Shown here: piece after piece, positions 2,749 to 20,373 of the stretch
Numbering within the stretch: position 1 is the stretch's first letter
How the letters are laid out: each line of letters opens with the position of its first letter
From: Halobacteriovorax sp.
GTDB taxonomy: Bacteria > Bdellovibrionota > Bacteriovoracia > Bacteriovoracales > Bacteriovoracaceae
DNA length: 64,000 bases
Assembly (NCBI GenBank): GCA_002720865.1
Contig: PBIO01000014.1
Span: 1,301,793 to 1,365,792 of the forward strand
Direction: 5' to 3'
Translations under genes and position numbers: made by a program
The notes under the pieces: model-generated
Told to the model about the DNA's origin: nothing
Databases searched by the model: none
The model's input: only the letters and a program-made list of their open reading frames with translations

Positions 2749-3837
2749 ATGTCGTCTTTAGAGGAAACTAAAGTTTTCAATCAAAATGATGCAGTCATTG
2801 AAGGCTGGTATTGGGCGCTCAAATCATCAAAACTAAAGTCAAAAAAACCAGTTCACTTAAATTTTTTAGGTAGAGAACTTGCTCTATATAGAGGAGAAGA
2901 CGGTGTCGCCAGGGCCGTGGACGCTTACTGTCCTCATATGGGTGCCCATCTGGCAGAAGGAAGAGTTGATGGAAAAGGAATCCGTTGCTTTTTTCACGCC
3001 TGGAAGTTTGATGAAGAAGGAAAACTTGTCGATATTCCTTGCCGTAAATCACCAGGGTTAGATTCAAAAATTAAAACTTGGCCTTGCCAAGAAAAATACG
3101 GAATGATTTGGATCTACACAGGTGAAGTCCCAAGACAGCCAGTACCCTTTATTTATGAGTTAGAAAATACTGAAGTCGATGCAAGTTTTGGGAACGAATT
3201 CGTAAAGGAATGTCATCCAAATGTCGTAATGATAAATGCAATTGATGCCCATCACTTTACCTCAGTTCACAATCTTCCCGTAGATGTTAAGTTTGAAACA
3301 ATCGTGCACAATGATTATTGTATCGCTTTTGAAAATCGAACTTTTATTCCACATACTCGTTGGTACTTAAAACTTTTTGATAAATTCTATGAGAAGTATT
3401 TGACCTATAAAATGTGTTACTGGAATGGTTCATCAGGCTCCGTTACCGTTGGCCCCGACTTTCTTCATTGTCATATCATTTTTGCTCTTAGGCCTCTTCA
3501 GAACGGACACACAGAGGGACAAACCATCTTGGTTACCCCTAAACGCTCGGGACTTTTAGGGAAATTTCTTAATCCGATTATTCTCTGGGCCACAAAACAA
3601 GTGGGTAACTACTTTGCTAAGGGTGACACAGAAGTCTTTAAAACAATCAAGTTTAAATTAAAAACACCTATCAAAGAAGATGATTCAATTATCAAATTTC
3701 TCCAGCATACAGAAAAGCAAAAGACTTGCGACTGGGGATTTGGGAAAAAGAAAATTAATAATCCCGAAATACAGGAAAAGGATTTCCAAAATGAAAAACA
3801 AGTTCAAGCTCGTTTCACAAACCACGCCAGTATGTGA
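2749..3837 (+). CDS. Rieske non-heme iron oxygenase (paralog 1)
   Basis: A 362-aa oxygenase alpha-type protein. The N-terminal Rieske domain has CPH (in AYCPHMGAHL) and CFFH, giving the C-x-H / C-x2-H [2Fe-2S] ligands. The C-terminal catalytic domain has IDAHHFTSVH, the D-x2-H-x4-H mononuclear-iron motif, and GDTEVFKTIKF probably supplies the third iron ligand (Asp). Family members hydroxylate, desaturate or N-oxygenate substrates using O2 and electrons from a reductase or ferredoxin. The start ATG 2749 has GGAAGG 8 nt upstream. It is the first gene of an eight-gene operon that contains two further paralogs (6784, 7878) sharing an N-terminal GWY segment and overall length. Substrate unknown; the N-terminal Rieske arrangement resembles sterol- and chlorophyllide-type oxygenases rather than a hexameric ring dioxygenase with a beta subunit. 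Confidence 0.88.
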   Translation: MSSLEETKVFNQNDAVIEGWYWALKSSKLKSKKPVHLNFLGRELALYRGEDGVARAVDAYCPHMGAHLAEGRVDGKGIRCFFHAWKFDEEGKLVDIPCRKSPGLDSKIKTWPCQEKYGMIWIYTGEVPRQPVPFIYELENTEVDASFGNEFVKECHPNVVMINAIDAHHFTSVHNLPVDVKFETIVHNDYCIAFENRTFIPHTRWYLKLFDKFYEKYLTYKMCYWNGSSGSVTVGPDFLHCHIIFALRPLQNGHTEGQTILVTPKRSGLLGKFLNPIILWATKQVGNYFAKGDTEVFKTIKFKLKTPIKEDDSIIKFLQHTEKQKTCDWGFGKKKINNPEIQEKDFQNEKQVQARFTNHASM

Positions 3838-4585
3838 GCTAACAAAATTAGAAACTAAATCAATGTATTTAGTTTTTTCTAAATATTATTTGAACACGAG
3901 TTATGAACAATTCATGACTGATTTAGAAGAAAAAGATGTCGTCTTTTTGCTATTAGACTCCAAGACCAAAGACATCGTTGGCTTTTCAACCTTGGTTAAT
4001 CTATATGTCGACGTAGAGGGACAAGAGCAACGAGGCTGCTTTAGTGGAGATACTATTCTTGAAAAAGAGTACTGGGGACAAGGTACTTTAGGCATAGCAT
4101 TTTTAAAGTATCTTTTTATTCAGAAACTAAAGAATCCATTCAAACCACTTTATTGGTTCTTAATCTCTAAGGGGTACAAAACCTACCTTTTAATGGCTAA
4201 TAATTTTAAGACTCATTATCCAAGGTACGAGCATAGTACACCTAAAAAACAAGGCTCAATCATAAAAGCTTTCTCAGAAACTCTTTATGGAGATTATTTT
4301 AATCAAGAAACAGGTGTTATCAGCTTCTCTAAAGTGAGTAGTAAAGATTGTTTAAAGTCTGAAATCACTCCGATTACAAAAGAGCTTTTGCTAAAGAATA
4401 AAAGAATTAAGTTCTTTGCTCAAAGAAACCCTGGCTGGGAAGAAGGTAATGAGCTGGCTTGTGTGGCTGAAATGACTTTAGGTATGCCTTTTTACTATCA
4501 GGCTAAGATTATCAAGAAACAATGGAAACGCTGGAAAGTTAACTTAGGGCTTACCCCTGCACCTCAAAAGGAAAAAACCGTATGA
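3791..4585 (+). CDS. GNAT-like acyltransferase, putative
   Basis: 264-aa soluble protein. I place the start at ATG 3791, inside the end of the preceding Rieske gene (47-nt overlap), because AGGAAAAGGA lies just upstream; a longer in-frame extension to 3680 is entirely within the Rieske gene. The core has the GNAT layout: a strand around FLLLDSKTKDIVGFSTL, then FSGDTILEKEYWGQGTLGIA, where the Gly-rich turn and helix would hold the acyl-CoA or acyl-ACP pantetheine. GNAT-fold N-acyl amino acid and acyl-homoserine-lactone synthases have similar size, so an acyl-transfer role in the neighbouring pathway is a reasonable inference. The assignment is by fold pattern only; no close family is recognised. 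Confidence 0.5.
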   Translation: MKNKFKLVSQTTPVCELTKLETKSMYLVFSKYYLNTSYEQFMTDLEEKDVVFLLLDSKTKDIVGFSTLVNLYVDVEGQEQRGCFSGDTILEKEYWGQGTLGIAFLKYLFIQKLKNPFKPLYWFLISKGYKTYLLMANNFKTHYPRYEHSTPKKQGSIIKAFSETLYGDYFNQETGVISFSKVSSKDCLKSEITPITKELLLKNKRIKFFAQRNPGWEEGNELACVAEMTLGMPFYYQAKIIKKQWKRWKVNLGLTPAPQKEKTV

Positions 4586-5433
4586 AGACTATTTTAATTA
4601 CAGGTTCTTCCTCCGGATTTGGACTTGAGATGGTTCATGATTTTACGGAGCTTGGTTATCACGTCATCGCTAGTTTACGAAGCGCTGAAGAGAGAAAAGC
4701 TCTTTTTGATTCAGTTTCCGATAAATCGAAATTAACTATTTTAAATTTAGATGTCAGCTCTAAAGACGATATTCGTCATGCCGCTGAACATATTAAACAA
4801 GCTCATAATGGTGAGCTTGATGTTCTCATCAATAACGCTGGCTACGGACTTTATGGAGCTCTTGAAGATGTTAGTGAAGAGCAAATCAGGCATCAAATGG
4901 AAGTTAACTTTTTTGGCGCAGCACTTTTAACTCAGGCTCTACTTCCGGCCCTTAGAAAAACTAAAGGCAAAGTCATCAATATTTCTTCTGTCATGGGAAG
5001 ATTCTCTTTGCCTCTAGGATCGGTCTATTCGGCATCTAAGTTTGCTCTAGAGGGACTTAGTGAAGGACTATATTACGAGCTTAAACCTTTTGGAGTTCAG
5101 GTATGTGCCGTTCAACCTGGTGCTCACCGAACGGGCTTTGTCAAGGCCATGATTTGGGGAGATAAAAGTCTCGAAGAGAATTCACCGTACTCAAATCAAA
5201 CCAAAGGACTTTTAAAAAATGTTGAGCTGATGACTTCTAAGCCCAAAGCGACGGGAAGTGATAATGTAAGTAAAATAGTCGTTGGGTTAGTAAGAAAAAA
5301 GAAAATGCCTCGAAGAGTCTTGGCAGGAAAAGACGCCGTGGCAACGGGAATAGCACAAAAGTTTCTTCCTGAGGCTCTTTATCATGAAATTCTTCATCGT
5401 AGTTATGAAAAAGTTTTTGGGAGTGAAGTGTGA
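4582..5433 (+). CDS. Short-chain dehydrogenase/reductase (SDR)
   Basis: 283-aa classical SDR. The Rossmann dinucleotide motif TGSSSGFG is at residues 7-14, the NNAG motif follows, and the catalytic Ser and Tyr-x3-Lys are in the ISS...YSASKFALEG stretch; PGAHRTGF follows as in classical members. It would oxidise an alcohol or reduce a ketone using NAD(P)H. ATG 4582 overlaps the previous stop by 4 nt, indicating translational coupling. In this operon it could process a hydroxyl introduced by the Rieske or diiron enzymes. Confidence 0.9.
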   Translation: MKTILITGSSSGFGLEMVHDFTELGYHVIASLRSAEERKALFDSVSDKSKLTILNLDVSSKDDIRHAAEHIKQAHNGELDVLINNAGYGLYGALEDVSEEQIRHQMEVNFFGAALLTQALLPALRKTKGKVINISSVMGRFSLPLGSVYSASKFALEGLSEGLYYELKPFGVQVCAVQPGAHRTGFVKAMIWGDKSLEENSPYSNQTKGLLKNVELMTSKPKATGSDNVSKIVVGLVRKKKMPRRVLAGKDAVATGIAQKFLPEALYHEILHRSYEKVFGSEV

Positions 5434-6338
5434 GCTCGGATAACTTAATCGTAGATGTTGACGTTAAAGATTCTGGTCCATCTGAAATAACAAATCTCCT
5501 ATATCGAAAAATTGGTCAACCTCCTAAACCGGACATCACAGAGCTGAGTGGACTCTGGGGAGCAGACTCCTATGACTTAGAAAATGTCGATATCTTTAAA
5601 GAATCAAGCCTGTCTGAAAAATTATTAGTTCTAGAGGATTGCGCTCGGGGGAGACTTGAAGAAGCTTATCATATCGAAAAATCTGGTATGGCCTTTACTT
5701 CTAAAATGACTCTTCTTGCAGATACCCTTGAGGAAAGAAAACTATATTGCCAATTTAGTGCTGATGAGGCCAATCACCTCGAAGCCATCACTAGTTTTCT
5801 ACCCAATATAAGTGATAATCATAAGGATAATCCCTTTATTCAACTTCTTGCGGATATTATTAATACAGGAGCAAGAAGGCCTTTAATTTTTATCATTCAG
5901 GTACTCCTTGAAGGCTGGGGAATAGATCATTATCAAGGAATGTTTAATAGCTGCCGCTCTATTGCATTGGGTGAGGTACTCTCAAAAATTATTAAAGATG
6001 AAGCTGGTCACCATGGCTCAGGCCTAATGCTTTTTAATGAGAACGAAATGACACCTACTGAAATGAACTATGTGGTCGACACCTTAAAGATTTTTTTCCA
6101 AATGGTACAAGTCGGGTCAGTTGGGACCGTTTCCAGTATAGAAAAAGTAAAGGGACACCTAAGCTCTAGTCAGAAAATTGGTTTACTTCATCAATTGCAA
6201 AGTCGAGAGAATGCTCAAAGAAAATTAAACGTCCTCAAAAAGTTAATGCATAAGGCAGAAAGTAATAAAATCATTGAAGCCTTAGAGAAAAATAATTGTT
6301 TTAGAGCTTTTGATTACCAAACTGTAATGAACTTATGA
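5430..6338 (+). CDS. Ferritin-like diiron oxygenase, putative
   Basis: 302-aa mostly helical protein. The metal-ligand pattern of the ferritin-like diiron fold is visible: a helix Glu in GRLEEAYHIE, then DEANH (E-x2-H), a Glu in LLEGWGIDHY and DEAGHH (E-x2-H). Such proteins activate O2 to hydroxylate or N-oxygenate small molecules or tRNA; spacing resembles MiaE-type and related bacterial hydroxylases but no exact family is claimed. GTG 5430 forms a GTGA overlap with the SDR stop. It is not an obvious copy of the AurF-like protein encoded at 16403, so the locus holds two different diiron enzymes. Confidence 0.65.
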   Translation: MSSDNLIVDVDVKDSGPSEITNLLYRKIGQPPKPDITELSGLWGADSYDLENVDIFKESSLSEKLLVLEDCARGRLEEAYHIEKSGMAFTSKMTLLADTLEERKLYCQFSADEANHLEAITSFLPNISDNHKDNPFIQLLADIINTGARRPLIFIIQVLLEGWGIDHYQGMFNSCRSIALGEVLSKIIKDEAGHHGSGLMLFNENEMTPTEMNYVVDTLKIFFQMVQVGSVGTVSSIEKVKGHLSSSQKIGLLHQLQSRENAQRKLNVLKKLMHKAESNKIIEALEKNNCFRAFDYQTVMNL

Positions 6339-6787
6339 TTTATAAACCTCGAAATAGTAAATGGATTGTAGATTCAAAAACTCGCTCTGTTAATTTGGCG
6401 AGGGTTGATAAGTACGGTCCTGAACATTTTGAGAATTACCAAGATTATTTTTTCTTTGTCCATATCGATCCAATTCAAAGGTTCTGGCATTCAGTAGGGA
6501 TGATCATAGGTACTTATTTTTTCTTTATGCTTTTCTACAGTTGGAGTACTTTGAGCATTCTATATTACTTTTTAGGGGTTTTCTTTTTTTATGGCTTTGG
6601 AGTTATAAGTCATGCTTACTATGATGGTCATTCTGGTAGAAGTGAGGCCAAGTATTTTCATCTAACAACACCTACCGTTATAAAGATTAATCTCCTGACC
6701 CTAACGGGAACCTACCAAAAATATTTAAATAAATTTATTCAAAAATACCCTTTTACTGTTGATGCCTTTGATATGGAGGTTAAGTGA
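6335..6787 (+). CDS. Mpo1/DUF962-like membrane protein
   Basis: 150 aa with two hydrophobic segments (about residues 52-70 and 73-92). Before the first lies HIDPIQRFWHSVG and after the second ISHAYYDGHSG. A His-Pro-x2-R-x2-H-x2-G block followed by a second His cluster is the layout of DUF962/YGL010w proteins, whose yeast member Mpo1 is an Fe(II) dioxygenase that shortens 2-hydroxy fatty acids by one carbon. If the assignment holds, this is another iron-dependent oxygenase in the operon, acting on a lipid at the membrane. ATG 6335 overlaps the preceding stop (ATGA). Assignment rests on this motif layout alone. Confidence 0.5.
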   Translation: MIYKPRNSKWIVDSKTRSVNLARVDKYGPEHFENYQDYFFFVHIDPIQRFWHSVGMIIGTYFFFMLFYSWSTLSILYYFLGVFFFYGFGVISHAYYDGHSGRSEAKYFHLTTPTVIKINLLTLTGTYQKYLNKFIQKYPFTVDAFDMEVK

Positions 6788-7881
6788 AAATTAATCCTCA
6801 AAATCAAAATAATTTAACTCAACCTAGACCTAGTTATAAGATTTTCAACAAGTGGGAGGTTGTAACAAATGGGTGGTATGAGGCTCTTGATTCAAAAAAG
6901 CTTGGACCTGGGAAGGCCCTTGGAGTTGATGTAGCTGGACAGCATTTGGTTCTCTTTAGAGGAGAGTCTGGGAAAGTTTACGCCCTTGATGGGTTTTGCC
7001 CACATATGGGAGTTGACTTAGGAATTGGTAAAGTTATTGGTGAAGAAATAAGGTGCTTTTTCCATCATTGGAAATTTGACGGTAAGGGACAGTGCCGCGA
7101 AATTCCTTGTTTAAGTGAAAAAAAACTAGAAGTTAAAACGGCAACCTATAAGGTACAAGAGAAATATGGAAGAATTTGGGTTTATCCTAAATCAGAGGCT
7201 CCTTATGACGTTCTCGAAGTTCCAGAATTAGAAGGTCAAAAAGTTAGTTATAGTTTCGGAAAAAGTTATAAGAGAAGATGTCACTTCCATGTAACGATGA
7301 TTAATGGAATAGATCCTCAACATCTTTCTACTGTTCATAATATTAATATGAATATGGATGTTTCAATCGATTATTCTGAAAAGGATACGATTGATATAAA
7401 TCTCGAGGGGGAAACACCTAATTCTAGGTTTAGCGAAAAATTGGTAAAAAAGCTTTTAGGTGATCGATATGCCTACTCAATGAAATATCAAGGAGGCTGT
7501 TTAGCCGCTCTTAGTGTGATGAAAGGGGTAAAGCTCTTCAATAAATGGGAAATACTTCCAACCTTGCATATGCTTTTTGCCTATCAGTCCCACCGTGAAG
7601 GCGAAACAATTGTTCAGCCTATCTTTTTAACTAAAAAAAGAAATTTTCTTATCGACAGGATACTTCTTCTTTTCACTAAGCTAGCTTTTAAAATGCTTCA
7701 GGGTGAAGATGGGGAAGTTTATGAGAATATTAGATTTAACACACAAAACCTTTTACCTATTGATGCACCAGTAACGAAATATATCAAATATATAAATGGT
7801 CTAACTCCCTCTCTTTGGTCAAGGCAAATTCCTACTGAGCCAAAACCAAGTATTCGAAAGAAACGAGAGGTTAGAGTATGA
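6784..7881 (+). CDS. Rieske non-heme iron oxygenase (paralog 2)
   Basis: 365 aa. Rieske ligands are in FCPHMGVDLG and CFFHHW; the catalytic domain has IDPQHLSTVH (D-x2-H-x4-H) and GEDGEVYENIRF for the distal Asp ligand. GTG 6784 overlaps the preceding TGA. It closely parallels the proteins encoded at 2749 and 7878 in domain order, the N-terminal NGWYEALDSKKL-type segment and the C-terminal ligand region, so the three arose by duplication. No reductase is encoded in this operon; the ferredoxin at 16201 is the nearest candidate electron donor. Confidence 0.88.
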   Translation: MKINPQNQNNLTQPRPSYKIFNKWEVVTNGWYEALDSKKLGPGKALGVDVAGQHLVLFRGESGKVYALDGFCPHMGVDLGIGKVIGEEIRCFFHHWKFDGKGQCREIPCLSEKKLEVKTATYKVQEKYGRIWVYPKSEAPYDVLEVPELEGQKVSYSFGKSYKRRCHFHVTMINGIDPQHLSTVHNINMNMDVSIDYSEKDTIDINLEGETPNSRFSEKLVKKLLGDRYAYSMKYQGGCLAALSVMKGVKLFNKWEILPTLHMLFAYQSHREGETIVQPIFLTKKRNFLIDRILLLFTKLAFKMLQGEDGEVYENIRFNTQNLLPIDAPVTKYIKYINGLTPSLWSRQIPTEPKPSIRKKREVRV

Positions 7882-8999
7882 GAGACTGGAAGAAAGCTCC
7901 ACGAGATGGAGCAAGCCGAAATGAAAATAAACTTAGTCAGCCTCTAAAAGAGCATAAAGTTTTTAATAACCATAAGGTTCTATCGCAAGGCTGGTATCCA
8001 CTAGTTAGTTCTAATAAACTAAAAAAGGGGCAGGCTCAAAGCTTCAAACTTTTGGATCAGAGACTTGCCTTATATAGAGGGCAAGATAATAAAGTCCGGG
8101 CCATGGATGCCTTCTGCCCCCATATGGGCGCAGATTTAGGTAATGGTGAGGTCATTGATAATAAACTTAGGTGTTATTTTCACCAGTGGGAGTTTAACGG
8201 CGATGGAAAAGTTCATAAAGTTCCAGCACTTGAAAAGCCTCCCTGCGGCGTAGAAGTTCAAAGTTATCCGGTTGAAGAAAAGTATGGACAGGTTTGGGTC
8301 TTTTCGGGTCCAGAGGCGGATCACGATGTACCAGTGGCACCTGGGCTTGAAGAAGCTGATGCAGATGCCCTTTATGTAAAAGAGATCACTTTATTTGCCC
8401 ATCATCATGTACTAATGGCGGGAGGAATTGACCTGAATCACTTTGCAACCGTACATAACTTAGATATGGAATTTAATTTTGATGTGGTTGAAGATGGCTC
8501 AGAGTTTATTTGGGAGCTAGAGGGTGATCTACCAGATAGTGGTTTTAAAGCAAAACTTGGGAAGTGGTTTTTAGGTTCAAAGTTTAGATACCAAATGAAA
8601 TTTTCAGGTGGTTCCGTTACCGCTATTACCTATGGGTATAATCAAAGATTTAAGGGAGTAGGAAGGCTTCTTCCGTCCTTACATATATTATGGGGAGCTA
8701 TTCCACAGGAATCTGGAGTAAGTAAGGTAAAAATATTTCTTCTTACCAAAAAAAGAAGTGGACTTCTGGGAAAGCTAAAAAACTTTGCCCTCTACCTTTC
8801 AACCTTTGGGTTATTGACGATTCTTAGAGATGAAGATGCAAAGGCTTTTCCTAATATGCGCTTTCAAACAGGTCATTTGGTTAAAGGAGATGAGTCTGTT
8901 GCCAGACTAGTCCAATGCATAAATAAGCTTCCAGTATCACCATGGTATAAAGAAAATGATTCTAAGAAAGACCAAAAACAAGTCGAGGTCTGGAATTGA
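7878..8999 (+). CDS. Rieske non-heme iron oxygenase (paralog 3)
   Basis: 373 aa. Rieske ligands are in FCPHMGADLG and CYFHQW, the mononuclear iron motif in IDLNHFATVH, and the likely distal Asp in RDEDAKAFPNMRF. ATG 7878 overlaps the stop of paralog 2 by 4 nt. Its N-terminal SQGWYPLVSSNKLKKG segment matches the equivalent region of the other two paralogs. All predicted metal ligands are intact in all three copies, which argues for sequential oxidations or different substrates rather than decay of redundant copies. Confidence 0.88.
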   Translation: MRDWKKAPRDGASRNENKLSQPLKEHKVFNNHKVLSQGWYPLVSSNKLKKGQAQSFKLLDQRLALYRGQDNKVRAMDAFCPHMGADLGNGEVIDNKLRCYFHQWEFNGDGKVHKVPALEKPPCGVEVQSYPVEEKYGQVWVFSGPEADHDVPVAPGLEEADADALYVKEITLFAHHHVLMAGGIDLNHFATVHNLDMEFNFDVVEDGSEFIWELEGDLPDSGFKAKLGKWFLGSKFRYQMKFSGGSVTAITYGYNQRFKGVGRLLPSLHILWGAIPQESGVSKVKIFLLTKKRSGLLGKLKNFALYLSTFGLLTILRDEDAKAFPNMRFQTGHLVKGDESVARLVQCINKLPVSPWYKENDSKKDQKQVEVWN

Positions 9000-9769
9000 G
9001 TGTTAGAAAAGCAAGTCTAGAAGAATGGTTTCTTATTTATCAATTAGAAAAAATAAAAAAAGGTCACTTCCATTTACCTTTTTATATGACTGTTAATATT
9101 TCTAAACTGGCAAAGTTTTATGCTGAAAAAGAAAAAAAGATTCCTTTGACCGCCCTTATGATAAAGGCTGCGGGATTACTCGCAAAGAAACATCCGGAAG
9201 TAAACAGAATCGTCTTTAAAACCTTTTACGGTCTTAGAATTTTTGATCCTAATTATATTTCAGTAAACCTCCCCATAATGATAGACGTGGAGGGGCAAAG
9301 GTTTTTAGCAGCAACTGTAATAGAGAATGTAGATAAAGCCACTATTTCAAAAATAAATGAAGAAATTAAAATGGCCTTGAGCCAAAGGCTTAGTGATTTA
9401 AAAATTGGAAAATATGTTTATAAGAAAAGGAATAATTTTATCAATAGAAGTCGACTTAAACTTATCCATTTTTTGATCAATAATTTCCCTAAAGTTTATG
9501 AAAACTTTGGAGGAGGAGCTTTAGCTGTTAGCTCTTTAATGAATCATAATCATGAGGACTTTGACATGTCTATGATGGCCTATGGCCCAACGGCCTTTAC
9601 GATTTGTTCTTGTAACCATATAAAAAAGAAAGATGAGGACTTCCTTAAGATTGGGATTGCCTATGATCACTTCGCCTTTTCAGGTGAAAAGGCCATTGAA
9701 GCAAGTCAGTATCTTAGCCATATATTGACAGGAAAAAATGAGGGGGATTTCTCCAGTCTCGTGGAGTAA
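8996..9769 (+). CDS. 2-oxoacid dehydrogenase E2-type acyltransferase domain protein
   Basis: 257 aa corresponding to the catalytic (chloramphenicol-acetyltransferase-like) domain of dihydrolipoamide acyltransferases, with no lipoyl or E1/E3-binding domain. Family features include ALMIKAAGLLAKKHPEVN, PIMIDVEGQ and the C-terminal IGIAYDHFAFSGEKA. In canonical E2 the last motif is H-x3-D-G; here it is HFAFSG, so the catalytic His remains but the Asp is Ser. A stand-alone CAT-like domain could move an acyl group from CoA or a carrier to an alcohol or amine. TTG 8996 overlaps the stop of paralog 3 (TTGA). It closes the operon; 71 bp follow before the next gene. Confidence 0.75.
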   Translation: MSVRKASLEEWFLIYQLEKIKKGHFHLPFYMTVNISKLAKFYAEKEKKIPLTALMIKAAGLLAKKHPEVNRIVFKTFYGLRIFDPNYISVNLPIMIDVEGQRFLAATVIENVDKATISKINEEIKMALSQRLSDLKIGKYVYKKRNNFINRSRLKLIHFLINNFPKVYENFGGGALAVSSLMNHNHEDFDMSMMAYGPTAFTICSCNHIKKKDEDFLKIGIAYDHFAFSGEKAIEASQYLSHILTGKNEGDFSSLVE

Positions 9770-9840
9770 GTACCCGTAATTACGAGTTTCTCCCCCTATA
9801 TTAGATTCATCATTATCCTATAGATTCCGATAAGTTAGCT

Positions 9841-10242
9841 GTGAGAGCTCTAATCATTTTGACTTTTTTTTTATGTCAATTCCCTTCCTTATATTCAAAG
9901 GAAAAAGAAGTTTTAGAGTTTAGCTCAAAGAACTATTTTTTTCAGACCAGTATAGAGAATAACACTATCGAAATTATTTGGAATAAGAGTGGTTTTAAAA
10001 ATAAGCTGTCTAAAAAAATGGCAGTCTGTTTCGAAAAAAGTATAAGAAAAGAGATCGATCAGCTTGGCAAAAGCCTACTTTCATCTCGTGGAAAACATAA
10101 TTTTGGGATCGAAGCGGCAGTTAAGTGGAAAAGTTGGAAGGATAGAAGAAAACTCTACCCAAGGGAAATGGACAAGTTAGATAAGCGCTTCTCCTATATT
10201 TTTACCATTGCAAATAAGTCGGAGAGTAAATGTATAAAATAG
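9841..10242 (+). CDS. Secreted hypothetical protein
   Basis: 133 aa beginning at GTG 9841 with a signal peptide (RALIILTFFLCQFPSLYS, cleavage near residue 20). The mature part is basic (many Lys) and carries two Cys (in MAVCFEKSI and ESKCIK), compatible with one disulfide. It overlaps the metallopeptidase gene by 13 nt and is probably co-transcribed with it; a role as chaperone, inhibitor or partner of that protease is conceivable but not shown. No family recognised. Confidence 0.65.
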   Translation: MRALIILTFFLCQFPSLYSKEKEVLEFSSKNYFFQTSIENNTIEIIWNKSGFKNKLSKKMAVCFEKSIRKEIDQLGKSLLSSRGKHNFGIEAAVKWKSWKDRRKLYPREMDKLDKRFSYIFTIANKSESKCIK

Positions 10243-12245
10243 CTTTTGCTTTTATATTTTTTATAACCTCGACGGTTAGCGCTTTAACGATTCCAATGAA
10301 TGAGTTTTTTAACTTTGTTGAATCTGGCCAGAATGATTTTATGTCTCCTAAATTTACCAGCGCAGCTTGTCTTCAAAAGGAGCCTGGTGTCGGTGGGTTT
10401 GACGCTAAAAAATGTGCTGATGAAATTTGTAAAAAGGGTTTTGTTTTACCTGAACTTGAAGGAGGAGACTTTAATCAAGTCGTCGCTTGTGTATCAGGAG
10501 GGGATAATAGAATCATTGCTGAAAAAATCTGTAGTGGCACAGGCTTTGAAGAATATTTACCAAAAATTGAAAGCGTTGCGATGAAGCTAAAAGAATTTTA
10601 TGGAACTGAGCTTAAGCTAACTGGCTATCGAATTAAAGCAGCTATAGATTTCTTAGAGAAAGGTCATAACCTAAGCTCAAGCTTTGATAATTTTAATACG
10701 AATATCGGCGATTTAATGGCCTTTGTTGTAGAGAACAAAGACCTATTTGAAATCAAACTCAAAGGGGACAAGGGGTTTCAGTTCCGAATTCTTAGTAAAA
10801 GAAAGGCCAAGAGCAGGTTAGGGAAATTCTTTAATTTAAACAATAGTGAGAAAAAATCAGCTCTAAAAGCAATTGAAGCACTCTATTCAGATTCGAACTC
10901 ACTTTTGGCCCTCGAAATACTAGGTCCTGAATTTGTCATAAAAGATTTTATGAAAAAACAACCAGAGGGCGTTTCGCCGATTGATGCCCTAAGGGTTGTT
11001 AAGTTTAAAGCGGTGGAGCATTTTAAGGATGTGCTCGGGACCGGAACAATTGATCCTGAGTTTATACAAGGAAGTGAAGAGGAAGCCTCAATAGATCTGA
11101 ACACAATATTACAGGATGCCTTGCTTTTAAACTCATTAAAGAAAGGATTAAGTAAAAAAGATTTTAGACGATTATCTAAACCTAATTTTACTAAGACCGG
11201 TTTTTATAATCGAGAAAGATTCGACCGAGATTGGTCCCAACCACATAAAGATTTATACCGTTCAACCTTAAGTTACTTAAAAGAATTGCAAAAAATCTAT
11301 GTCGGTGATGCTGAGACAGTCAAACCTTTTGACCTCTACCCTCACGTGAGTGCAATCTTACAGGGGATTGAAACGCTACCCTCAGATAAAACAAAAGAAG
11401 ACGTTAAGAAGAAAGTGCCTGGATTTATTGATGGATTTTTCAAAAAGTTTGGAGAGATCTTTTCAAAACGTTCGACCTCAATAATCCAATCAAAGATGAA
11501 TAAGCTACATATTAAGTTTCCTGATAGTAAGAATCAATATCTGGAGAAAATTGAGAAGTGGCTTGCTCATAAACAATCCCTGGCCGATAGCAGCTTAAAG
11601 CTTCTCAGAGACTCAAAAAATATCCAGGCCCCCTCATATTTTGGAAGGCAGTACCTACAAAAACTTTTATCTGGGCAAAGCGAGATCGGAGGCTTAAATG
11701 AATTGGCCCCCCTCGTTGGGGTTAATCCAATCCCTGATTTATATATTGGAACTTATAATGGTATCAAAATGGGGCCTTATGCGGTCAAAGAGTTTGATGG
11801 ACCTGGGAAACAAGTATTGGCCCATGAACTCGGACACCATATTGGACACTTTATGGAGTCCCATCCTCTTTCCCAAGATACAACTTATACCTTCGCAAGA
11901 GTTAGGCAATGTCTTGCTACAACTCATAGCGAAGTAAAATCTGAAGATCAGATGGAAGTGAGATCTTTGGGAAAAAAGAAGTATTTATGGAAAGAGAATC
12001 TCTATACGGAGGAAGATTTTGCGGATTGGATTGCAGCGAAAACTTCAGATAAGAATATGGCCTGTTTCTTTATTCAAAATGAGATTTTAGATCAGAGTAT
12101 AGAAGGCTTATTAGTTAATCCAAATATTAAAGACACTCATTCAAGCGGATTTTATAGGCTACTTAATATTGAAATGCAGCAAAAAGGAAAACTTCCAAAA
12201 AGTTGTAAAAATGATGTGATTAAAACTTGTCCCTCTTCTAATTAA
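10230..12245 (+). CDS. Secreted zinc metallopeptidase, putative
   Basis: 671 aa with a clear signal peptide (KIAFAFIFFITSTVSA). The C-terminal third has HELGHHIGHF at residues 532-541, an H-E-x2-H zinc site; EEDFADWIA about 60 residues later could supply the third (Glu) ligand, the gluzincin spacing. Six or so Cys cluster near residues 45-95, suggesting disulfides after export. The start ATG 10230 has GGAG nearby and overlaps the previous gene. The N-terminal two thirds match no family I know. It lies between the two oxygenase operons and overlaps the end of the GH3 gene by 8 nt in convergent orientation. An exported protease fits a predatory lifestyle; a link to the oxygenase pathway is not evident. 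Confidence 0.7.
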   Translation: MYKIAFAFIFFITSTVSALTIPMNEFFNFVESGQNDFMSPKFTSAACLQKEPGVGGFDAKKCADEICKKGFVLPELEGGDFNQVVACVSGGDNRIIAEKICSGTGFEEYLPKIESVAMKLKEFYGTELKLTGYRIKAAIDFLEKGHNLSSSFDNFNTNIGDLMAFVVENKDLFEIKLKGDKGFQFRILSKRKAKSRLGKFFNLNNSEKKSALKAIEALYSDSNSLLALEILGPEFVIKDFMKKQPEGVSPIDALRVVKFKAVEHFKDVLGTGTIDPEFIQGSEEEASIDLNTILQDALLLNSLKKGLSKKDFRRLSKPNFTKTGFYNRERFDRDWSQPHKDLYRSTLSYLKELQKIYVGDAETVKPFDLYPHVSAILQGIETLPSDKTKEDVKKKVPGFIDGFFKKFGEIFSKRSTSIIQSKMNKLHIKFPDSKNQYLEKIEKWLAHKQSLADSSLKLLRDSKNIQAPSYFGRQYLQKLLSGQSEIGGLNELAPLVGVNPIPDLYIGTYNGIKMGPYAVKEFDGPGKQVLAHELGHHIGHFMESHPLSQDTTYTFARVRQCLATTHSEVKSEDQMEVRSLGKKKYLWKENLYTEEDFADWIAAKTSDKNMACFFIQNEILDQSIEGLLVNPNIKDTHSSGFYRLLNIEMQQKGKLPKSCKNDVIKTCPSSN

Positions 12246-13776
12246 GATATTTTAAATCAAACTCTTTTAATAAGAGAGAAGGTTTGATATCTCCAAGCTT
12301 CATTCCTTTTTCAGATTGTAAGTAATTTAAAACTCTTTCATTCATATCTTTCTTACAGATGACCTCAAGAGGTTTTAAGGTCCCCAAGTTTCTCGCTACT
12401 TTATAATGAAAACCTTTCATCAATTCTTTTTCCACTGCAGAGCTTAAGCTTTTGTCCTCATTGTTTGTAAGTAATGTATAGTACCCGTGGTTTTCATCGA
12501 TTCGATTTGGAATAAAAAGGTAGTACTGATCACTTTTTAAATTCTTAACAATATTGTTTAAAAAACTAAGGTTAATTTTTTCACCAAAAAGATCTGAAGT
12601 TTCAGGTCCACGGCCCTCAAACTCCAAACAGGGAGTTTCCTTATAAAACCTAGGTACACTAACCCGATCACCAATAGAGTAGCGATAGAGTCCACCAGGT
12701 GTACTAATGATGAGTTTATAGACCTCACCCCCAACAATTTCATGGAGTCTTAATATTTCTCCATTTTTATTTTCAAACTCGTAAAAAATTGAATCAATTA
12801 GGGGAACAAATCCCTTTGCTTTAATTAAGGGGATCGTAATAGGTGCCTCTGTGGCCAAAAGGCCTTTGGCTTGAATAAATGCGTTTGGAAAAATCTTTTT
12901 GAGCTTATTAAAACCAAGTTCCGCCTCTTTTGATCCCCAGCTACTTACAAGCTTTAATTTTGGCCAGATCTCGGAGAAAGGCTTTTCCTTTATGATGGCG
13001 ACTCGCTTTGGACTTGGTTTTGCGAATTTAAAGGTAATGCCTTCTTGTCTTATAAAACCTTTTTCTAGGTCTATTAAAAGTTCCTTTCTATTGGAATCGA
13101 TAAACTCAAGCAAGACAGCGAAAGTCGAGGGGTTCCAGACACTGATGATTTCTAAATTCTTCTGTGCTAACAAATGAAGGGCGAGGACCTTTTTAAATCC
13201 ATGAGGGTCCTTAAGTCTTTTGATCTTTTTAGGTGTCGTAAAGAAAGACTTTAAAAACCAAGAGAAAAACCCTTCAAGGTATTCAGCGTCGTCTTCTAAT
13301 CCCTCATTATCGTCTTTGAACTGGGGGCTGACTGAGAAATAGAGCTTCCCGTATTTAAACTTAGGACCGTTTACCAATAGATCTCTGGCCCACAAGGAAA
13401 ACATTTTGGAAAAGCTAGATTTTAAGGCCCAAGTGTAAGGGATTAGCTTTTTGTTTCCACTAGAACCACTTGTTGGCTCATAAAAGATGACCGGACCAGG
13501 AGAAAAATAGTTTTCCTTTGATACTCTCATACTCTCAATTTTTTCTTCAATCGATTCATAATTAATCAGAGGTGCATTTTGTATGAACTCCTGATAATCA
13601 GAAGCTTTTCCTTTTTCAATTCCATAGGAAGAGGAATTATATAAGGTTAAAATCTTTTTTAACGTTTTCTCTTGGCTTTCAAGTGGACGAGTCAGGGCCT
13701 GTTCAAATCTTTTTGAAGTTCGACTTAATATTAGTCTTAAAAAACCGCGAATAATTGGAGAGAAGTATTTAATCAA
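12238..13776 (-). CDS. GH3-family acyl-acid amido synthetase
   Basis: 512 aa. The GH3 branch of the adenylating superfamily is shown by EPTSGSSGNKKLIPY (phosphate-binding loop), KLVSSWGSKEAELG, and the hallmark GGLYRYSIGDRV. GH3 enzymes activate a carboxylic acid as acyl-AMP and couple it to an amino acid or amine; plant members conjugate auxin and jasmonate. Bacterial members occur in metabolite operons. TTG 13776 overlaps the preceding gene by 8 nt. It is the last gene of the minus-strand operon and the best candidate for the bond-forming step of a carrier-free amide synthesis. The acyl and amine substrates cannot be read from sequence. Confidence 0.88.
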   Translation of the reverse strand: MIKYFSPIIRGFLRLILSRTSKRFEQALTRPLESQEKTLKKILTLYNSSSYGIEKGKASDYQEFIQNAPLINYESIEEKIESMRVSKENYFSPGPVIFYEPTSGSSGNKKLIPYTWALKSSFSKMFSLWARDLLVNGPKFKYGKLYFSVSPQFKDDNEGLEDDAEYLEGFFSWFLKSFFTTPKKIKRLKDPHGFKKVLALHLLAQKNLEIISVWNPSTFAVLLEFIDSNRKELLIDLEKGFIRQEGITFKFAKPSPKRVAIIKEKPFSEIWPKLKLVSSWGSKEAELGFNKLKKIFPNAFIQAKGLLATEAPITIPLIKAKGFVPLIDSIFYEFENKNGEILRLHEIVGGEVYKLIISTPGGLYRYSIGDRVSVPRFYKETPCLEFEGRGPETSDLFGEKINLSFLNNIVKNLKSDQYYLFIPNRIDENHGYYTLLTNNEDKSLSSAVEKELMKGFHYKVARNLGTLKPLEVICKKDMNERVLNYLQSEKGMKLGDIKPSLLLKEFDLKYLN

Positions 13777-14455
13777 ACTTTTGATCCTGGTAGTCTTCTT
13801 TCTTTTTTATCGGCCATCTAGGATGCTTATATTTTAGGTCATGCTTTTTAGGAATAAATTCATCAATATAAATATCAGATAGTACTGGAAGAAAACAGCC
13901 CTTATCGATTTCGGCTCCTGGACCAAGTCTAGAGCCAGCCCCTATAAAAGCGCCATCGCCAATTATGATGTTTTTTGAATACAGTGAAAAAACACCTTTT
14001 TTACCACCGACAACATGGCTTACAAGTTCTACTTTATGACCAAAGAGAACATGGTCTCCAATTTCAACCATAGACCTATCATCGATTTCAACATTTGGTG
14101 TCCAGTAAACACCTTTTCCAACTTTACTTCCCCAAAGCCTAAGCCAAAGGCTAAAGGCACCTGGTATCACTCTAAGTAAGGCCTCAAAAGAAGGAACCAC
14201 GTAAAATAATAATTGAATTTGATGTCCGCCCCACCAAGGGGAGTACTTATCTTTTGATAAGTCAGACTTTCCTTCTTTGATAGGATAAAAAAGACCCATT
14301 AATCGAAAGCTTAGCAAAGGAAAAAGGTAAACAGCCGAAGGTATAAGAATAATGCTTTTGAAACTTGGCTCTTTAGCAAAACAAAAAAGTGCCAGAACAA
14401 TAAGACAAAAGTGTAGGACCGGGAAAAGGGCCATTAGTTTACTTAATAAGGTCAT
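13769..14455 (-). CDS. Membrane-linked hexapeptide (LbH) acyltransferase
   Basis: 228 aa. Two N-terminal hydrophobic segments (about residues 8-26 and 34-54) precede a left-handed beta-helix with hexapeptide turns: VEIGDHVLFGHKVEL and IIIGDGAFIGAGSRLGPGAEI. LbH enzymes transfer acetyl or acyl groups from CoA or ACP to hydroxyl or amino acceptors; the membrane anchor suggests a lipophilic acceptor. ATG 14455 overlaps the preceding stop (ATGA). Sits between the hydroxylase and GH3 genes, so it could acylate the hydroxyl made by the hydroxylase (inference). Confidence 0.75.
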   Translation of the reverse strand: MTLLSKLMALFPVLHFCLIVLALFCFAKEPSFKSIILIPSAVYLFPLLSFRLMGLFYPIKEGKSDLSKDKYSPWWGGHQIQLLFYVVPSFEALLRVIPGAFSLWLRLWGSKVGKGVYWTPNVEIDDRSMVEIGDHVLFGHKVELVSHVVGGKKGVFSLYSKNIIIGDGAFIGAGSRLGPGAEIDKGCFLPVLSDIYIDEFIPKKHDLKYKHPRWPIKKKEDYQDQKFD

Positions 14456-15177
14456 GTTTGCTTACCTTTAAAAGGAAATAGTAACGCTTTCCATAGGGGA
14501 AGCTGAGTAGGGATTCCAAGCTTACTTGGTTTTTCTAACTCTTTTCTATAAGTACCGTGAACTTTATCCCATAGGTTTAAATTAGCGCCAAAGTTTGAGT
14601 TAGGTTGATTGGAATGATGCCATTGATGATCAATAGGTGTCGCAATAAAAAGTTTATCGCTTAAAAAGTGTGACGCTGGAAAGTTTGAGTGCTTCCATAA
14701 ATCAAGGGCCGCACTTAGTCCTGCTGCTACAACATAGAAAGTAGGGTCCTTTAGAAGATAGATCATTATGGCATTGACCCAAACATAAAGAATCAAAAAA
14801 GAAGTCCAAAGGGTATTTCTACTAGTAGCAAATACGTCCATATCTTCAGCAGAGTGATGCACCCTATGTAGGTTCCATAATCCATTAAAATGTAGGATAC
14901 GATGGTTCCAATAATAAAAATAATCAACGACTATAAAGTTTAGTAAGAAGCAAACGATAGGATGTAAGTCCAAGATCCCCTGGAGCTGAGGAAAAAAATT
15001 AGAAAATAGGCCATAGAGAATAATCGTCTGAAGGATTGGGATTAGTATGCCCTGAATAGGTAAGTTCAAGAGGTCCAAAACCCAGCCGTCAAAAGATTTT
15101 TTGAGCATAATTCCCCGTCTCTTATTAGAGGCAAGGGTAAAAATAATTAATATGATAAAAGCTATTGTTGAGATCAT
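14452..15177 (-). CDS. Fatty acid hydroxylase / sterol desaturase family protein
   Basis: 241 aa, four or more hydrophobic segments, with the family's His clusters: HRILH, HRVHH (in LHRVHHSAEDMD) and HQWHH (in PIDHQWHHSNQ), plus a His in LWKHSNFPASH. These ligands hold a membrane diiron centre used for hydroxylation or desaturation of fatty acyl, sterol or carotenoid substrates. I chose ATG 15177, which overlaps the Rieske stop as ATGA; a TTG two codons earlier is possible. It follows the Rieske gene and precedes the LbH acyltransferase in the same operon. Confidence 0.88.
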   Translation of the reverse strand: MISTIAFIILIIFTLASNKRRGIMLKKSFDGWVLDLLNLPIQGILIPILQTIILYGLFSNFFPQLQGILDLHPIVCFLLNFIVVDYFYYWNHRILHFNGLWNLHRVHHSAEDMDVFATSRNTLWTSFLILYVWVNAIMIYLLKDPTFYVVAAGLSAALDLWKHSNFPASHFLSDKLFIATPIDHQWHHSNQPNSNFGANLNLWDKVHGTYRKELEKPSKLGIPTQLPLWKALLFPFKGKQT

Positions 15178-16211
15178 ACCCAAAACTCAAATTCTTGTGT
15201 TCTTGATTTTAGAAGCCTTGGGTCTCGGCCCTTTTCAATTTCTTCGCGAATTGACTCAATAAAGACATGAACAATATCGGCCTTAGAATTATTAAAATCC
15301 GCACCGTATTTCTTAATGACTTCCATTTGATTATTAAGGACCACTATATCTTGATCTATAACTGATTGACCTTGGTACTTAACAATGGGGGCACCTAAAA
15401 AATTCCAAATTGATCCGAACTTAAAAGTTAAATCTGTATAAACCCAAGTGAGCTCATTGTTTATAGGTACAGACTGACTCGTAATATAAAACTCTTTACC
15501 CGGGGAAAAGATGTACTCCACGGATGTAACATTTGGCATATGAAAGTAATCTTTATGAACAATAGGTGTTCCCTTGGGATTTAAAAACCAGCTGAACCAT
15601 CCTAAGTTGTCTGTCTCATTTCTATAGTCGATCTCAACGGAGCCATTATCTCTCTTACAAGTTGCTTCAACTTTTTCTTGTTTACTTACCCTAAATATTT
15701 CATCGTGAACAAAAACGGTATGGGGAACATCGACATAGTTCTCTGCACAGTTCGTAACATCATTTTTAAAAATATTAAAAAGTCGAACTGTCTTATAACC
15801 TTTTTCTTTGTAGTGGGGCATTTTAAAAGGCTTAACATCTATGTCGGGATGATTTTCTAAGCGAATAAAAATAAAGTCATCTTGTTCAACACACTCAAAA
15901 CTTATGGCTTTTCTAGAGGGTAAGCTTTTTTGATCTGGTCCCTCTGCTGGAATATTGACCACTTGCCCTTCGCCGTTAAAGGTCCACCCATGGTAAGGGC
16001 ATCGAATACAACCGTCTTTTACGGCCCCCTTAGAAAGTTGATAATTTCTATGGATGCAGCGATCTTGAAATGCCTTAGGATTACCTTCCTTATCTCTAAA
16101 GAGAACCAACCATTCTCCAAGAATCGTTCGGGCCAAAGGCTTTTCTTTTGTTAGCTCTTTAGATTGACAGGCGATATACCAAAAGTTTTTAAAGTTCACT
16201 TTATTTTCCAA
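15174..16211 (-). CDS. Rieske non-heme iron oxygenase (type distinct from paralogs 1-3)
   Basis: 345 aa. Rieske ligands are in RCIHRNYQL and RCPYHGWTF (C-x-H, C-x2-H); the catalytic motif is NYVDVPHTVFVH (D-x2-H-x4-H), and IDQDIVVLNNQ probably gives the distal Asp. The CPYHGW signature is the classical phthalate/vanillate-demethylase type, unlike the CFFH/CYFH form of the plus-strand trio, so it was recruited independently. TTG 16211 overlaps the ferredoxin gene; GTG 16199, just after that gene's stop with GGAA upstream, is an equally plausible start (341 aa). Electrons are probably supplied by the adjacent ferredoxin. Confidence 0.88.
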   Translation of the reverse strand: MENKVNFKNFWYIACQSKELTKEKPLARTILGEWLVLFRDKEGNPKAFQDRCIHRNYQLSKGAVKDGCIRCPYHGWTFNGEGQVVNIPAEGPDQKSLPSRKAISFECVEQDDFIFIRLENHPDIDVKPFKMPHYKEKGYKTVRLFNIFKNDVTNCAENYVDVPHTVFVHDEIFRVSKQEKVEATCKRDNGSVEIDYRNETDNLGWFSWFLNPKGTPIVHKDYFHMPNVTSVEYIFSPGKEFYITSQSVPINNELTWVYTDLTFKFGSIWNFLGAPIVKYQGQSVIDQDIVVLNNQMEVIKKYGADFNNSKADIVHVFIESIREEIEKGRDPRLLKSRTQEFEFWV

Positions 16212-16500
16212 TGTAATTGAACTCCGTATCTTCTTCTATGGTAAATTGGCAGGATAGTCTTGCTAGCTTGTTATCGGGAGCTAAAACTTCTAAAAGTTCA
16301 CGCTCCGCTGCTCCAGCAGGCTCAATGCTCTCACCGCCGTTGGTGATTTCAACTAAACAGGTTCCGCAAACGCCGGTTCTACATCCAAAAAGAACTGGGC
16401 TATTAGAGCTGTTGAGTGTTTCGCTGGGATTGCACCCTTTCTCCACTGATAGGGGAGGATGCTGTTCGTTTTTGAATGAAATGGTGCAGGTACCGCTCAC
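16201..16500 (-). CDS. Plant-type [2Fe-2S] ferredoxin
   Basis: 99 aa with the four cluster cysteines in FGCRTGVCGTC (C-x4-C-x2-C) and, about 30 residues later, LSCQ. It is a soluble one-electron carrier, here sandwiched between a diiron oxygenase and a Rieske oxygenase and most likely serving both. The GTG start at 16500 has GAGG six nt upstream. The first 98 nt lie within the 3' end of the diiron oxygenase gene in another frame, an unusually long overlap, so the two should be translationally coupled. No ferredoxin reductase is encoded nearby. Confidence 0.88.
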   Translation of the reverse strand: MSGTCTISFKNEQHPPLSVEKGCNPSETLNSSNSPVLFGCRTGVCGTCLVEITNGGESIEPAGAAERELLEVLAPDNKLARLSCQFTIEEDTEFNYIGK

Positions 16501-17683
16501 TCTCTACCTCAAATTTTTTAAATGCTTGTTTATTAGTTCTAATATATTTTTCAATGGTTGTTTTTTTCATAAGCTTCATCTCACGATTTGACTTACTTAT
16601 ATAAGGTAAGCCATCCACATATTGCTGATAGGACTTAGAGGCCACACAGTGTGTATCGTAAGCTAAATGCATGGCCTGGTTTTCCCTAAGAAAACATTTT
16701 TCCATCATTTGTAGAGCGCCCACATGATCAAATTCAAAATAAGGGCTTCTTAAAACCCTATAAATTACGGGAAAGAGAGCCGGCTCGTACCAGAAAATTC
16801 CATTGACCGAAATATTGAAGTGCTGATGATCTTTTTGACATCCCTTGATACCCATATTGGCAATATGAGACTCAAATTTTGTTGGCCCCTTTAAAGTATG
16901 AATAACATCATGTCCGATTATAGAACTTGAATTAAAATGATAACTTTCATCTAAAAAGTGATGATAGGAAATCTTACTTGGGATCGGTGCATTTATTTTA
17001 TCGGGATGCTTATCATAGTACTGACCAAGTTCATGCTGAACGATTTTACCTTTCAAGGTACGAAGACCTCGAACTGTAAAGTATTGGCAGGCAATAAAAG
17101 CATTATTAGAAGAAAGAAAGCTAAAGGCATTCAATTGCATCCATTTCCAAAATTCTTTTACTCTATTAGTGTTTTGGAAAATCATTGTTTCTGTCGCAAA
17201 ATTCTTCATGGGGTAAGTAAATAGTCTTTCCCCAAAAAGTTTTTCTTCAACTTGCTCTGAAATAGTTTTAAAGGCATTTATATGACCGCGCTCTTGCATG
17301 GATTCTAAATCTAGAGTGTCGCAAACGAGTCTAAAATCCTCTAGTGAGTATAGACCTGCAGCAGAAGTTTGATTTAAAAAGATCGTGGCTATTTCGGCAG
17401 AAATAATTTGGCTATAATAGGCCACCCAATAGAGCTGATTTAAAAGAATTTTTTGAGAGGGACTAGACTCATGCCAAAGTGGGGTAGCGTATAAAAGAGA
17501 ATATTTTTCGGGATTCCAAAGTTCATCTCGGCAATCTTCAAAGACGAAGTCTCGGGCCAATTTGTCGAGCTCATCTCCATTATCTTGTTCGCGGTTACGC
17601 CTAAGATTTATCTCTAGCTTTTTAGTCGTGATCTTATCATCGAGAAGCGACTTTTCCTGCTTTTGATAGAGGTTTTGATTCAC
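16403..17683 (-). CDS. AurF-like diiron oxygenase
   Basis: 426-aa helical protein. Ligand candidates in order: AEIATIF (Glu), MQERGH (E-x2-H), QHELGQ (Glu), and HFLDESYH. The last reads H-x3-E-x2-H, the extra-histidine pattern that distinguishes AurF/CmlI arylamine N-oxygenases from simple ferritin-like enzymes. Such enzymes oxidise an amine to hydroxylamine or nitro, or hydroxylate carbon. I prefer GTG 17683, preceded by AAGGAAGG with 5-nt spacing; ATG 17701 and TTG 17710 are in-frame alternatives that would add 6 or 9 residues. First gene of the minus-strand operon; its 3' end overlaps the ferredoxin gene. AurF-like identity is from motif spacing and needs structural comparison. Confidence 0.7.
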   Translation of the reverse strand: MNQNLYQKQEKSLLDDKITTKKLEINLRRNREQDNGDELDKLARDFVFEDCRDELWNPEKYSLLYATPLWHESSPSQKILLNQLYWVAYYSQIISAEIATIFLNQTSAAGLYSLEDFRLVCDTLDLESMQERGHINAFKTISEQVEEKLFGERLFTYPMKNFATETMIFQNTNRVKEFWKWMQLNAFSFLSSNNAFIACQYFTVRGLRTLKGKIVQHELGQYYDKHPDKINAPIPSKISYHHFLDESYHFNSSSIIGHDVIHTLKGPTKFESHIANMGIKGCQKDHQHFNISVNGIFWYEPALFPVIYRVLRSPYFEFDHVGALQMMEKCFLRENQAMHLAYDTHCVASKSYQQYVDGLPYISKSNREMKLMKKTTIEKYIRTNKQAFKKFEVESERYLHHFIQKRTASSPISGERVQSQRNTQQL

Positions 17684-19696: not shown

Positions 19697-20373
19697 AATT
19701 AGTTCTTTATGGTGGGGGACATGAGGAAGAGAATCTTCACTTGGATGCCGAGGCAATTAAGCTAACAAATGTTTCAGACCCCCGTGTCACATATATCCCA
19801 TCTTGCTCCTATGATTCCGAAGTTGATTTTATCGCTTTTGTTCAAAATTACCGAAAGTTAGGACTTACAAGATTTATTCATTTTCCCATAGATGTTCCCT
19901 TTGATCAGGTCTTATTATCTGAGGCTATGAGTAGTGATATTATTCATCTTTCTGGTGGGAATACTTATTATTTTTTAAAGTATCTAAGAAAAACGGGAAT
20001 ACTCTCAAGACTTAAGGCCTTTGTTAAAAATGGCGGGGTCCTCACTGGAATGTCAGCCGGGGCCATATTGATGACTCCAGATATTAAGACGGCCGGTTAC
20101 CCGAAATTTGATTGTGATGATAATGATGAAAAAGTAAAAAATTTAAAGGCCATGAATATTGTGCCCTTTGAGTTTTTTCCTCATTATAAGAACTCCACTC
20201 GTTATGAAAAAGAGCTTGTGATGCAATCAAAGAAAGTTAGCACCCCAGTTTATGCAGTTCCGGATCATTCGGGAATTGTTGTTGATGGAAATAGCATGAA
20301 GTTTGTCGGAAAAACGGTTTGCTTTCACAAAGGAAAAAAAGTTCCCTTATCTAGTCACCTGAAACTTGTGTAG
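19693..20373 (+). CDS. Peptidase S51 (dipeptidase E / cyanophycinase-like)
   Basis: 226 aa. HLSGGNTYYFL and the nucleophile elbow GMSAGA (Ser near residue 120) are diagnostic of the S51 family, which cleaves Asp-X dipeptides or beta-aspartyl peptides. A downstream PDHSG probably holds the catalytic His. No signal peptide is visible, so it is cytoplasmic. GTG 19693 overlaps the stop of the SelO-like gene and has GGGAAGGG upstream. Its 3' end overlaps the convergent YbaN-like gene by 23 nt. Confidence 0.85.
   Translation: MKLVLYGGGHEEENLHLDAEAIKLTNVSDPRVTYIPSCSYDSEVDFIAFVQNYRKLGLTRFIHFPIDVPFDQVLLSEAMSSDIIHLSGGNTYYFLKYLRKTGILSRLKAFVKNGGVLTGMSAGAILMTPDIKTAGYPKFDCDDNDEKVKNLKAMNIVPFEFFPHYKNSTRYEKELVMQSKKVSTPVYAVPDHSGIVVDGNSMKFVGKTVCFHKGKKVPLSSHLKLV

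Follow-up and report, generated by a model that had tools for sequence, protein, structure and literature searches.

We analysed a 64,000-nt stretch of a Halobacteriovorax sp. genome (hereafter, the window; assembly GCA_002720865.1, contig PBIO01000014.1, positions 1,301,793-1,365,792 of the forward strand), in which two operons face each other: operon A with eight genes (A1-A8; 2749-9769, + strand) and operon B with six (B1-B6; 12238-17683, - strand). On balance, we favour the reading that both operons, together with an adjoining transporter gene of the resistance-nodulation-division (RND) type, are one copy of the orphan Rieske-containing, CylC-type biosynthetic gene cluster (BGC), which would make an oxidised, possibly chlorinated acyl product.

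Enzymes encoded by the two operons

Families were assigned using an open reading frame (ORF) listing, Pfam and NCBIfam scans, motif checks, AlphaFold models and Foldseek fold matches. The ORF listing placed every gene of both operons where a preliminary description of this DNA had put it. That description had also reported overlaps of 1-4 nt at nearly all junctions, which held for six of the seven in operon A (4 nt; A1 and A2 overlap by 47 nt) but not for operon B, where one junction is of 4 nt and the remainder are of 8-98 nt.

Both operons encode iron enzymes. Four are Rieske oxygenases, i.e., the core protein A1 (2749-3837, + strand; PF00355, E = 3.4e-23), A6 (6784-7881, + strand; PF00355, E = 3.5e-22), the accessory protein A7 (7878-8999, + strand; PF00355, E = 2.9e-23), and the core protein B3 of a separate lineage (15174-16211, - strand; PF00355, E = 8.1e-27), and the motifs CxH-x(17)-CxxH and D-xx-H-xxxx-H are intact in each. 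A4 (5430-6338, + strand) is a core ferritin-like diiron protein with a weak Ferritin_2/DUF455 match and ExxH motifs, in which E78, E113, H116, E161, E191 and H194 were invariant among 16 homologs. The core protein B4 (14452-15183, - strand) belongs to the fatty-acid hydroxylase/sterol-desaturase superfamily (PF04116, E = 7.8e-26; three His boxes), and the core protein B1 (16403-17683, - strand) is a homolog of CylC-type dimetal-carboxylate (diiron) halogenases. The likely electron donor is B2 (16201-16500, - strand), a core 2Fe-2S plant-type ferredoxin (PF00111, E = 2.3e-7) with the four Cys of CxxxxCxxC...C kept.

The remaining genes mostly encode enzymes that transfer or activate acyl groups. 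The core GH3-type acyl-adenylating amide synthetase B6 (12238-13776, - strand; PF03321, E = 7.4e-37) matched plant GH3/JAR1 structures (E 1e-24 to 1e-27) and kept the nucleotide motifs TSGSSG and YRYxxGD. A2 (3791-4585, + strand; start placed at ATG 3791) had no significant Pfam match, and as sequence profiles of A2 and B1 searched against the PDB gave nothing useful, folds were used instead. The AlphaFold model of A2 (20 homologs; pLDDT 90) was matched by Foldseek to GNAT N-acetyltransferases (E 3e-6), with SGDT among the residues invariant in its homologs, pointing to a core GNAT-fold acyltransferase. B5 (13769-14455, - strand; PF00132) is a core hexapeptide (LbH) acyltransferase with a hydrophobic N-terminus, whose profile matched galactoside/maltose O-acetyltransferases and in which H147 is invariant. 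A8 (8996-9769, + strand; PF00198, E = 3.6e-6) is an accessory E2/CAT-like acyltransferase; its profile matched lipoamide acyltransferases (6e-7), with weak likeness to 2-oxoacid E2 transferases. A3 (4582-5433, + strand) is an accessory short-chain dehydrogenase/reductase (SDR; PF00106, E = 1e-48; TGxxxGxG and YxxxK). The recurrent accessory protein A5 (6335-6787, + strand) had no Pfam match itself and is a candidate DUF962/Mpo1-like protein by way of a relative beside another cluster copy (L075; 47% identity), which scored 26.4 bits against PF06127 (cut-off 24 bits); His 43, 52 and 93 are invariant in the A5 family and align with the conserved His of this relative.

These assignments agree with those first proposed for operon A (three Rieske oxygenases, a diiron protein, an SDR, and Mpo1-like, GNAT and E2-type proteins), via the relative for A5 and weakly for A8, and for operon B in its ferredoxin, Rieske, fatty-acid hydroxylase, LbH and GH3 members; B1, previously taken for an AurF-like oxygenase, had to be reassigned. 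The proposal of a biosynthetic unit of iron oxygenases and acyl-transfer or ligase enzymes, free of polyketide synthase (PKS) and nonribosomal peptide synthetase (NRPS), was upheld: Pfam scans of 0.3-22 kb revealed no PP-binding, AMP-binding, PKS or NRPS match (ketosynthase, condensation or carrier domains), hence no PKS, NRPS or acyl carrier protein (ACP) gene, and B6 is the only adenylating enzyme in the cluster.

Conservation and distribution of the cluster

Operons A and B are one inherited unit. B1 was detected in 23 of the 129 genomes of the class, all of them among the 53 with A2, a co-occurrence far above chance (naive P ~4e-11, with kinship ignored). A1, A2, A4, A6 and B1-B6 all lay inside ~16 kb in 19 of 22 sampled class neighbourhoods; gene order was rearranged among these copies, with B1-B6 always together. 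The three other neighbourhoods were interrupted by contig ends or by the extent of the stretch taken, and in two cases most missing genes turned up on a neighbouring stretch or another contig. Scanning the GTDB species genomes gave 148 loci, 80 of which were kept, and gene-family counts were taken over 94 loci. The same core was present in Cyanobacteria (Nostoc, Calothrix, Planktothrix and Okeania), Myxococcota, Acidobacteriota, Elusimicrobiota, Pseudomonadota (including Accumulibacter), Planctomycetota, and Sericytochromatia/Melainabacteria metagenome-assembled genomes (MAGs). One of the cyanobacterial copies (L126) is in N. punctiforme NIES-2108. Conservation had been named beforehand as the check on the preliminary description; the homologs of both operons co-occur in class relatives and other phyla rather than being scattered, which supports one biosynthetic unit.

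In phylogenetic trees, A1 (clade support 98/96), A6 and A7 (99/100) each formed a single ortholog group spanning these phyla, and the B3 sequences fell into one clade, with two divergent extra copies aside. Phyla were intermixed in the B1 tree and the Bacteriovoracia did not group together. Along with the patchy presence of the cluster, this suggests spread by horizontal transfer, though many of the genomes are MAGs and possibly mis-binned. In two MAGs labelled Candidatus Sericytochromatia (L059 and L060), B1 and B3 nest among those of Bacteriovoracia, from either recent transfer or mis-binned contigs.

The accessory genes vary among copies. The A3 family was detected in 27 of the 94 loci and is rare in cyanobacterial copies, and A7 and A8 are paired, being neighbours also in L032, L037, L039, L044, L075 and L133. 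Of the 94 neighbourhoods, 35 encode an Mpo1-like protein, which in seven is part of a long protein of 700-780 aa. The one long protein scanned with Pfam (L080, 4844-7054) has an Amidohydro_3 domain joined to the Mpo1-like domain; the recurrence and this fusion argue that the Mpo1-like function is part of the pathway. Long proteins resembling it also lie inside the cluster in L068, L069, L074, L082, L104 and L129.

An RND/MMPL-type transporter gene (317-2629, + strand; Pfam MMPL, E = 1.9e-17) is upstream of operon A, and several relatives (L037, L181, L182 and L039) have homologs of it next to the cluster. Many class genomes without B1 carry A2 adjoining GH3. Across 14 such B1-less neighbourhoods we detected GH3 (n = 13), A2 (n = 13), a B3-like Rieske protein (n = 10) and the RND transporter (n = 10), along with recurrent unknown proteins of ~500 aa and 374 aa. 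This recurring set suggests that GH3, GNAT, Rieske and RND proteins are a shared core of chemistry and export, and the halogenase-type cluster looks like an elaboration of it. As RND genes occur in both cluster types, the one in the window is argued to belong to the system and is a probable cluster member and exporter of the product. In these ~14 Bacteriovoracia genomes (L166-L180), the simpler cluster was also accompanied by a 930-aa protein (FG-GAP/UnbV_ASPIC).

Between the operons, on which both converge, are two unrelated genes (9841-12245) encoding a 133-aa secreted protein and a 671-aa protein with an HExxH-like HELGHH motif and no Pfam match. Beside the cluster, this pair was confined to the genus of the window (37-38% identity in G038) and was not found at copies outside it, so we rejected it as part of the pathway; it looks like a lineage-specific insertion. 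On the other side of B1 and divergent from operon B, a 608-aa divergent SelO-like protein and an S51 peptidase (17870-20373) adjoin B1 in G037, G038 and G056 only and are outside the conserved set. The window further encodes a 1689-aa fibre/adhesin-type protein that carries, close to its end, a Peptidase_S74 domain of the chaperone-of-endosialidase kind (25212-30281) and an RHS-repeat protein (46028-47656).

Assignment of B1 to the CylC-type halogenases

The motifs ExxQExxH and HxxDExxH, published as diagnostic of dimetal-carboxylate (CylC-type) halogenases (PMC12871659, PMC12101540), were invariant in the B1 homologs of the neighbourhoods studied (92/92). ExxQExxH is reported to be absent from AurF, and its Gln is said to separate the halogenases from AurF (PMC12871659). 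The AlphaFold model of B1 (pLDDT 82) matched the AurF fold (Z 18.9 over 290 residues), and B1 scored 15.4 bits against the Pfam AurF family PF11583, under the cut-off of 29.6. By its motifs and modelled fold, B1 thus belongs to the CylC-type halogenase homologs and is not just an AurF-like oxygenase, and halogenation activity is likely on the basis of family.

The single B1 of this genome shares 57% identity with its counterpart from a Nostoc cluster, and the split between its clade and that of the carrier-linked CylC homologs has 100/100 support. The metal motifs are common to B1 and carrier-linked CylC homologs despite 28-31% identity. Some cyanobacterial genomes with a B1 homolog also hold a more distant paralog, one of which is flanked by an AMP-binding enzyme, a carrier protein and a PKS, i.e., the canonical CylC context.

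Proposed pathway, alternatives and known systems

We infer the substrate, product and halogenation: the product would probably be an exported, heavily oxidised, possibly chlorinated fatty amide, the GH3 enzyme making an acyl amide or ester plausible. The cluster may have been acquired or retained patchily in Bacteriovoracia, and the acyl chain would be supplied by ordinary fatty-acid metabolism, free or as lipid, with no carrier protein. C-H bonds of the chain may be functionalised by A4, B4, the Rieske enzymes and B1, the last by chlorination that is perhaps cryptic; ferredoxin B2 and reductases of the host would supply the electrons. Alpha-oxidation by A5 may shorten the chain by one carbon, and A3 may convert an alcohol to a ketone or the reverse. 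B6 would adenylate the acid and couple an amine to it in the manner of OlsH, the enzyme of N-acyl ornithine formation, A2 and B5 (and A8 where present) could attach further acyl groups, and the lipid-like product would be exported by the RND/MMPL protein.

A number of observations weigh against this pathway. B1 homologs have Gln216 clade-wide (92/92), where canonical homologs have Glu (4/4). From its spacing to HxxDExxH this position corresponds to NocO E252, and the E252A variant of NocO lost chlorination (PMC12101540), so halogenation by B1 may be altered or lost; a literature search returned no report of an assay on any Rieske-clade B1 homolog. A8 may be inactive, as judged by its catalytic motif, in which D224-H225 is invariant and the usual D-G is missing. 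The Mpo1-like role of A5 is drawn from its family, the closest named model for B4 is OlsE at 70 bits (cut-off 475), B6 scored 30.6 bits against the OlsH model NF052613 (cut-off 620) and is outside that family as modelled, and the RND gene is not present at every cluster copy. The loss of the Glu essential in NocO, and the presence of other diiron and Rieske oxygenases in the cluster, would suit a B1 clade of diiron oxygenases or desaturases that are halogenases no more, with a heavily hydroxylated or a desaturated, non-halogenated amino lipid as the product. We consider this rather unlikely, given that both halogenase motifs, including the distinguishing Gln (PMC12871659), are invariant in the 92 homologs and that a small subset with Gln at the E252 position was counted within the halogenase subfamily (PMC12101540). 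Gln216 is therefore compatible with membership, yet weakens the claim of activity.

Other products and functions were judged by the remaining genes. Modification of a sphingolipid or ceramide-like lipid would employ A3 as a KdsR-like (3-ketodihydrosphingosine) reductase, the GNAT-fold A2 as N-acyltransferase, the fatty-acid hydroxylase, and Mpo1-like alpha-oxidation. Mpo1 acts in yeast phytosphingosine breakdown and Bacteriovorax sphingolipids are known, and A3 did match KdsR (1.7e-55). This match of 188 bits is under the 400-bit cut-off, however, and generic SDR models score above KdsR; A3 is absent from most cyanobacterial copies and so not core, no serine palmitoyltransferase gene was seen in the cluster (no search was aimed at it), and GH3 would have no role, which makes this route improbable. 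The MMPL transporter, the sterol-desaturase-family protein and the Rieske proteins, for all four of which SdmA was the best NCBIfam match, could instead tailor a sterol, hopanoid or carotenoid; the FA_hydroxylase superfamily includes C4-methylsterol oxidases. The SdmA matches are of ~74-85 bits against a cut-off of 600, a cyclase was detected in 5 of the 129 class genomes, and the genome studied has no squalene-hopene or oxidosqualene cyclase and no squalene or phytoene synthase. We thus rejected tailoring of endogenous isoprenoids, a triterpenoid or C30/C40 carotenoid made by the cell being unlikely, and a fatty-acyl scaffold is favoured; tailoring of this kind would need a scavenged substrate and is highly improbable. 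Least probable of all is a catabolic or detoxification island in which ring-hydroxylating Rieske oxygenases degrade a foreign compound: such oxygenases are often catabolic and the patchy distribution (23/129) suits an accessory function, but the core GH3, GNAT and LbH enzymes build bonds at ATP or acyl cost, and Pfam scans of the cluster detected no genes for ring cleavage, beta-oxidation or a reductase.

Returning to the acyl product of a Rieske-containing cluster, we tentatively propose that Gln-type B1 homologs are diiron enzymes that need no carrier protein to functionalise (chlorinate or otherwise) acyl chains, whether free or bound in lipids, and that the products of the cluster in cyanobacteria, Bacteriovoracia and several other phyla form an undescribed class of acyl amides, exported, multiply oxidised, and halogenated or cryptically halogenated. 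Should B1 indeed dispense with a carrier protein, it would be of use as a biocatalyst for C-H halogenation, a point made by Eusebio et al. (PMC8406957). The Gln216 signature, the GH3, GNAT and RND core of the halogenase-free sister cluster, and the Mpo1-amidohydrolase fusions offer handles on the product.

B1 shares with the canonical halogenases (CylC, NocO and carrier-linked homologs, e.g., L184) the AurF fold, E97, ExxQExxH and HxxDExxH, and differs from them in its 28-31% identity, in Gln216 for Glu and in having no fatty acyl-AMP ligase (FAAL), ACP or PKS neighbours; the nostochloroside work concerns the PKS-linked CylC type and not the Rieske clade (PMC10849952). With the AurF/CmlI N-oxygenases, B1 shares the fold (Z 16.5-18.9) and the HxxDExxH region and differs by ExxQExxH. 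For B6, the best guide to function by analogy is the GH3-type OlsH, the N-acyl ornithine-forming enzyme of planctomycetes; for bacterial GH3 homologs, a role in the synthesis of other N-acyl amino acids has been suggested (PMC12493201). The OlsH/OlsI ornithine-lipid pathway likewise combines a GH3-type enzyme with a second acyltransferase in a logic of N-acylation and then O-acylation, whereas the acyltransferases in the window are of LbH and GNAT type, not alpha/beta-hydrolases, and many extra oxygenases are present.

The closest system was named in 2021, when Eusebio et al. described 36 orphan "Rieske-containing" cyanobacterial BGCs. These encode 2-4 Rieske proteins, mostly accompanied by a single CylC homolog and a member of the sterol desaturase family, and have no carrier protein, activation enzyme or known product; their similarity-network cluster also includes non-cyanobacterial homologs (PMC8406957). 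The earlier statement that no pathway with this gene set had been described therefore needs correcting as to the class, whose product and chemistry were not described there. Our search of open-access papers, which could miss a product published elsewhere, found no later product assignment for the class, only Eusebio et al. as directly relevant to GH3 and Rieske pathways, and nothing on Bacteriovoracia halogenases. What is new here is the membership of Bacteriovoracia with the full gene content, the clade-wide Glu-to-Gln replacement, the recurrent Mpo1-like proteins and fusions, and the simpler sister cluster. A sporadic Bacteriovoracia cluster is thereby tied to an orphan halogenase cluster type that is among the commonest in cyanobacteria, and the class gains a defined core gene list across phyla. 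The window has all the features listed for the class, i.e., four Rieske proteins, one CylC homolog of the Rieske/PriA clade (B1), B4, and no carrier protein or FAAL. It differs from the cyanobacterial BGCs in its host (Bacteriovoracia, Bdellovibrionota), its two converging operons, the SDR A3, the A7/A8 pair and the adjoining RND gene, and GH3, unmentioned in the text of PMC8406957, is present as B6.

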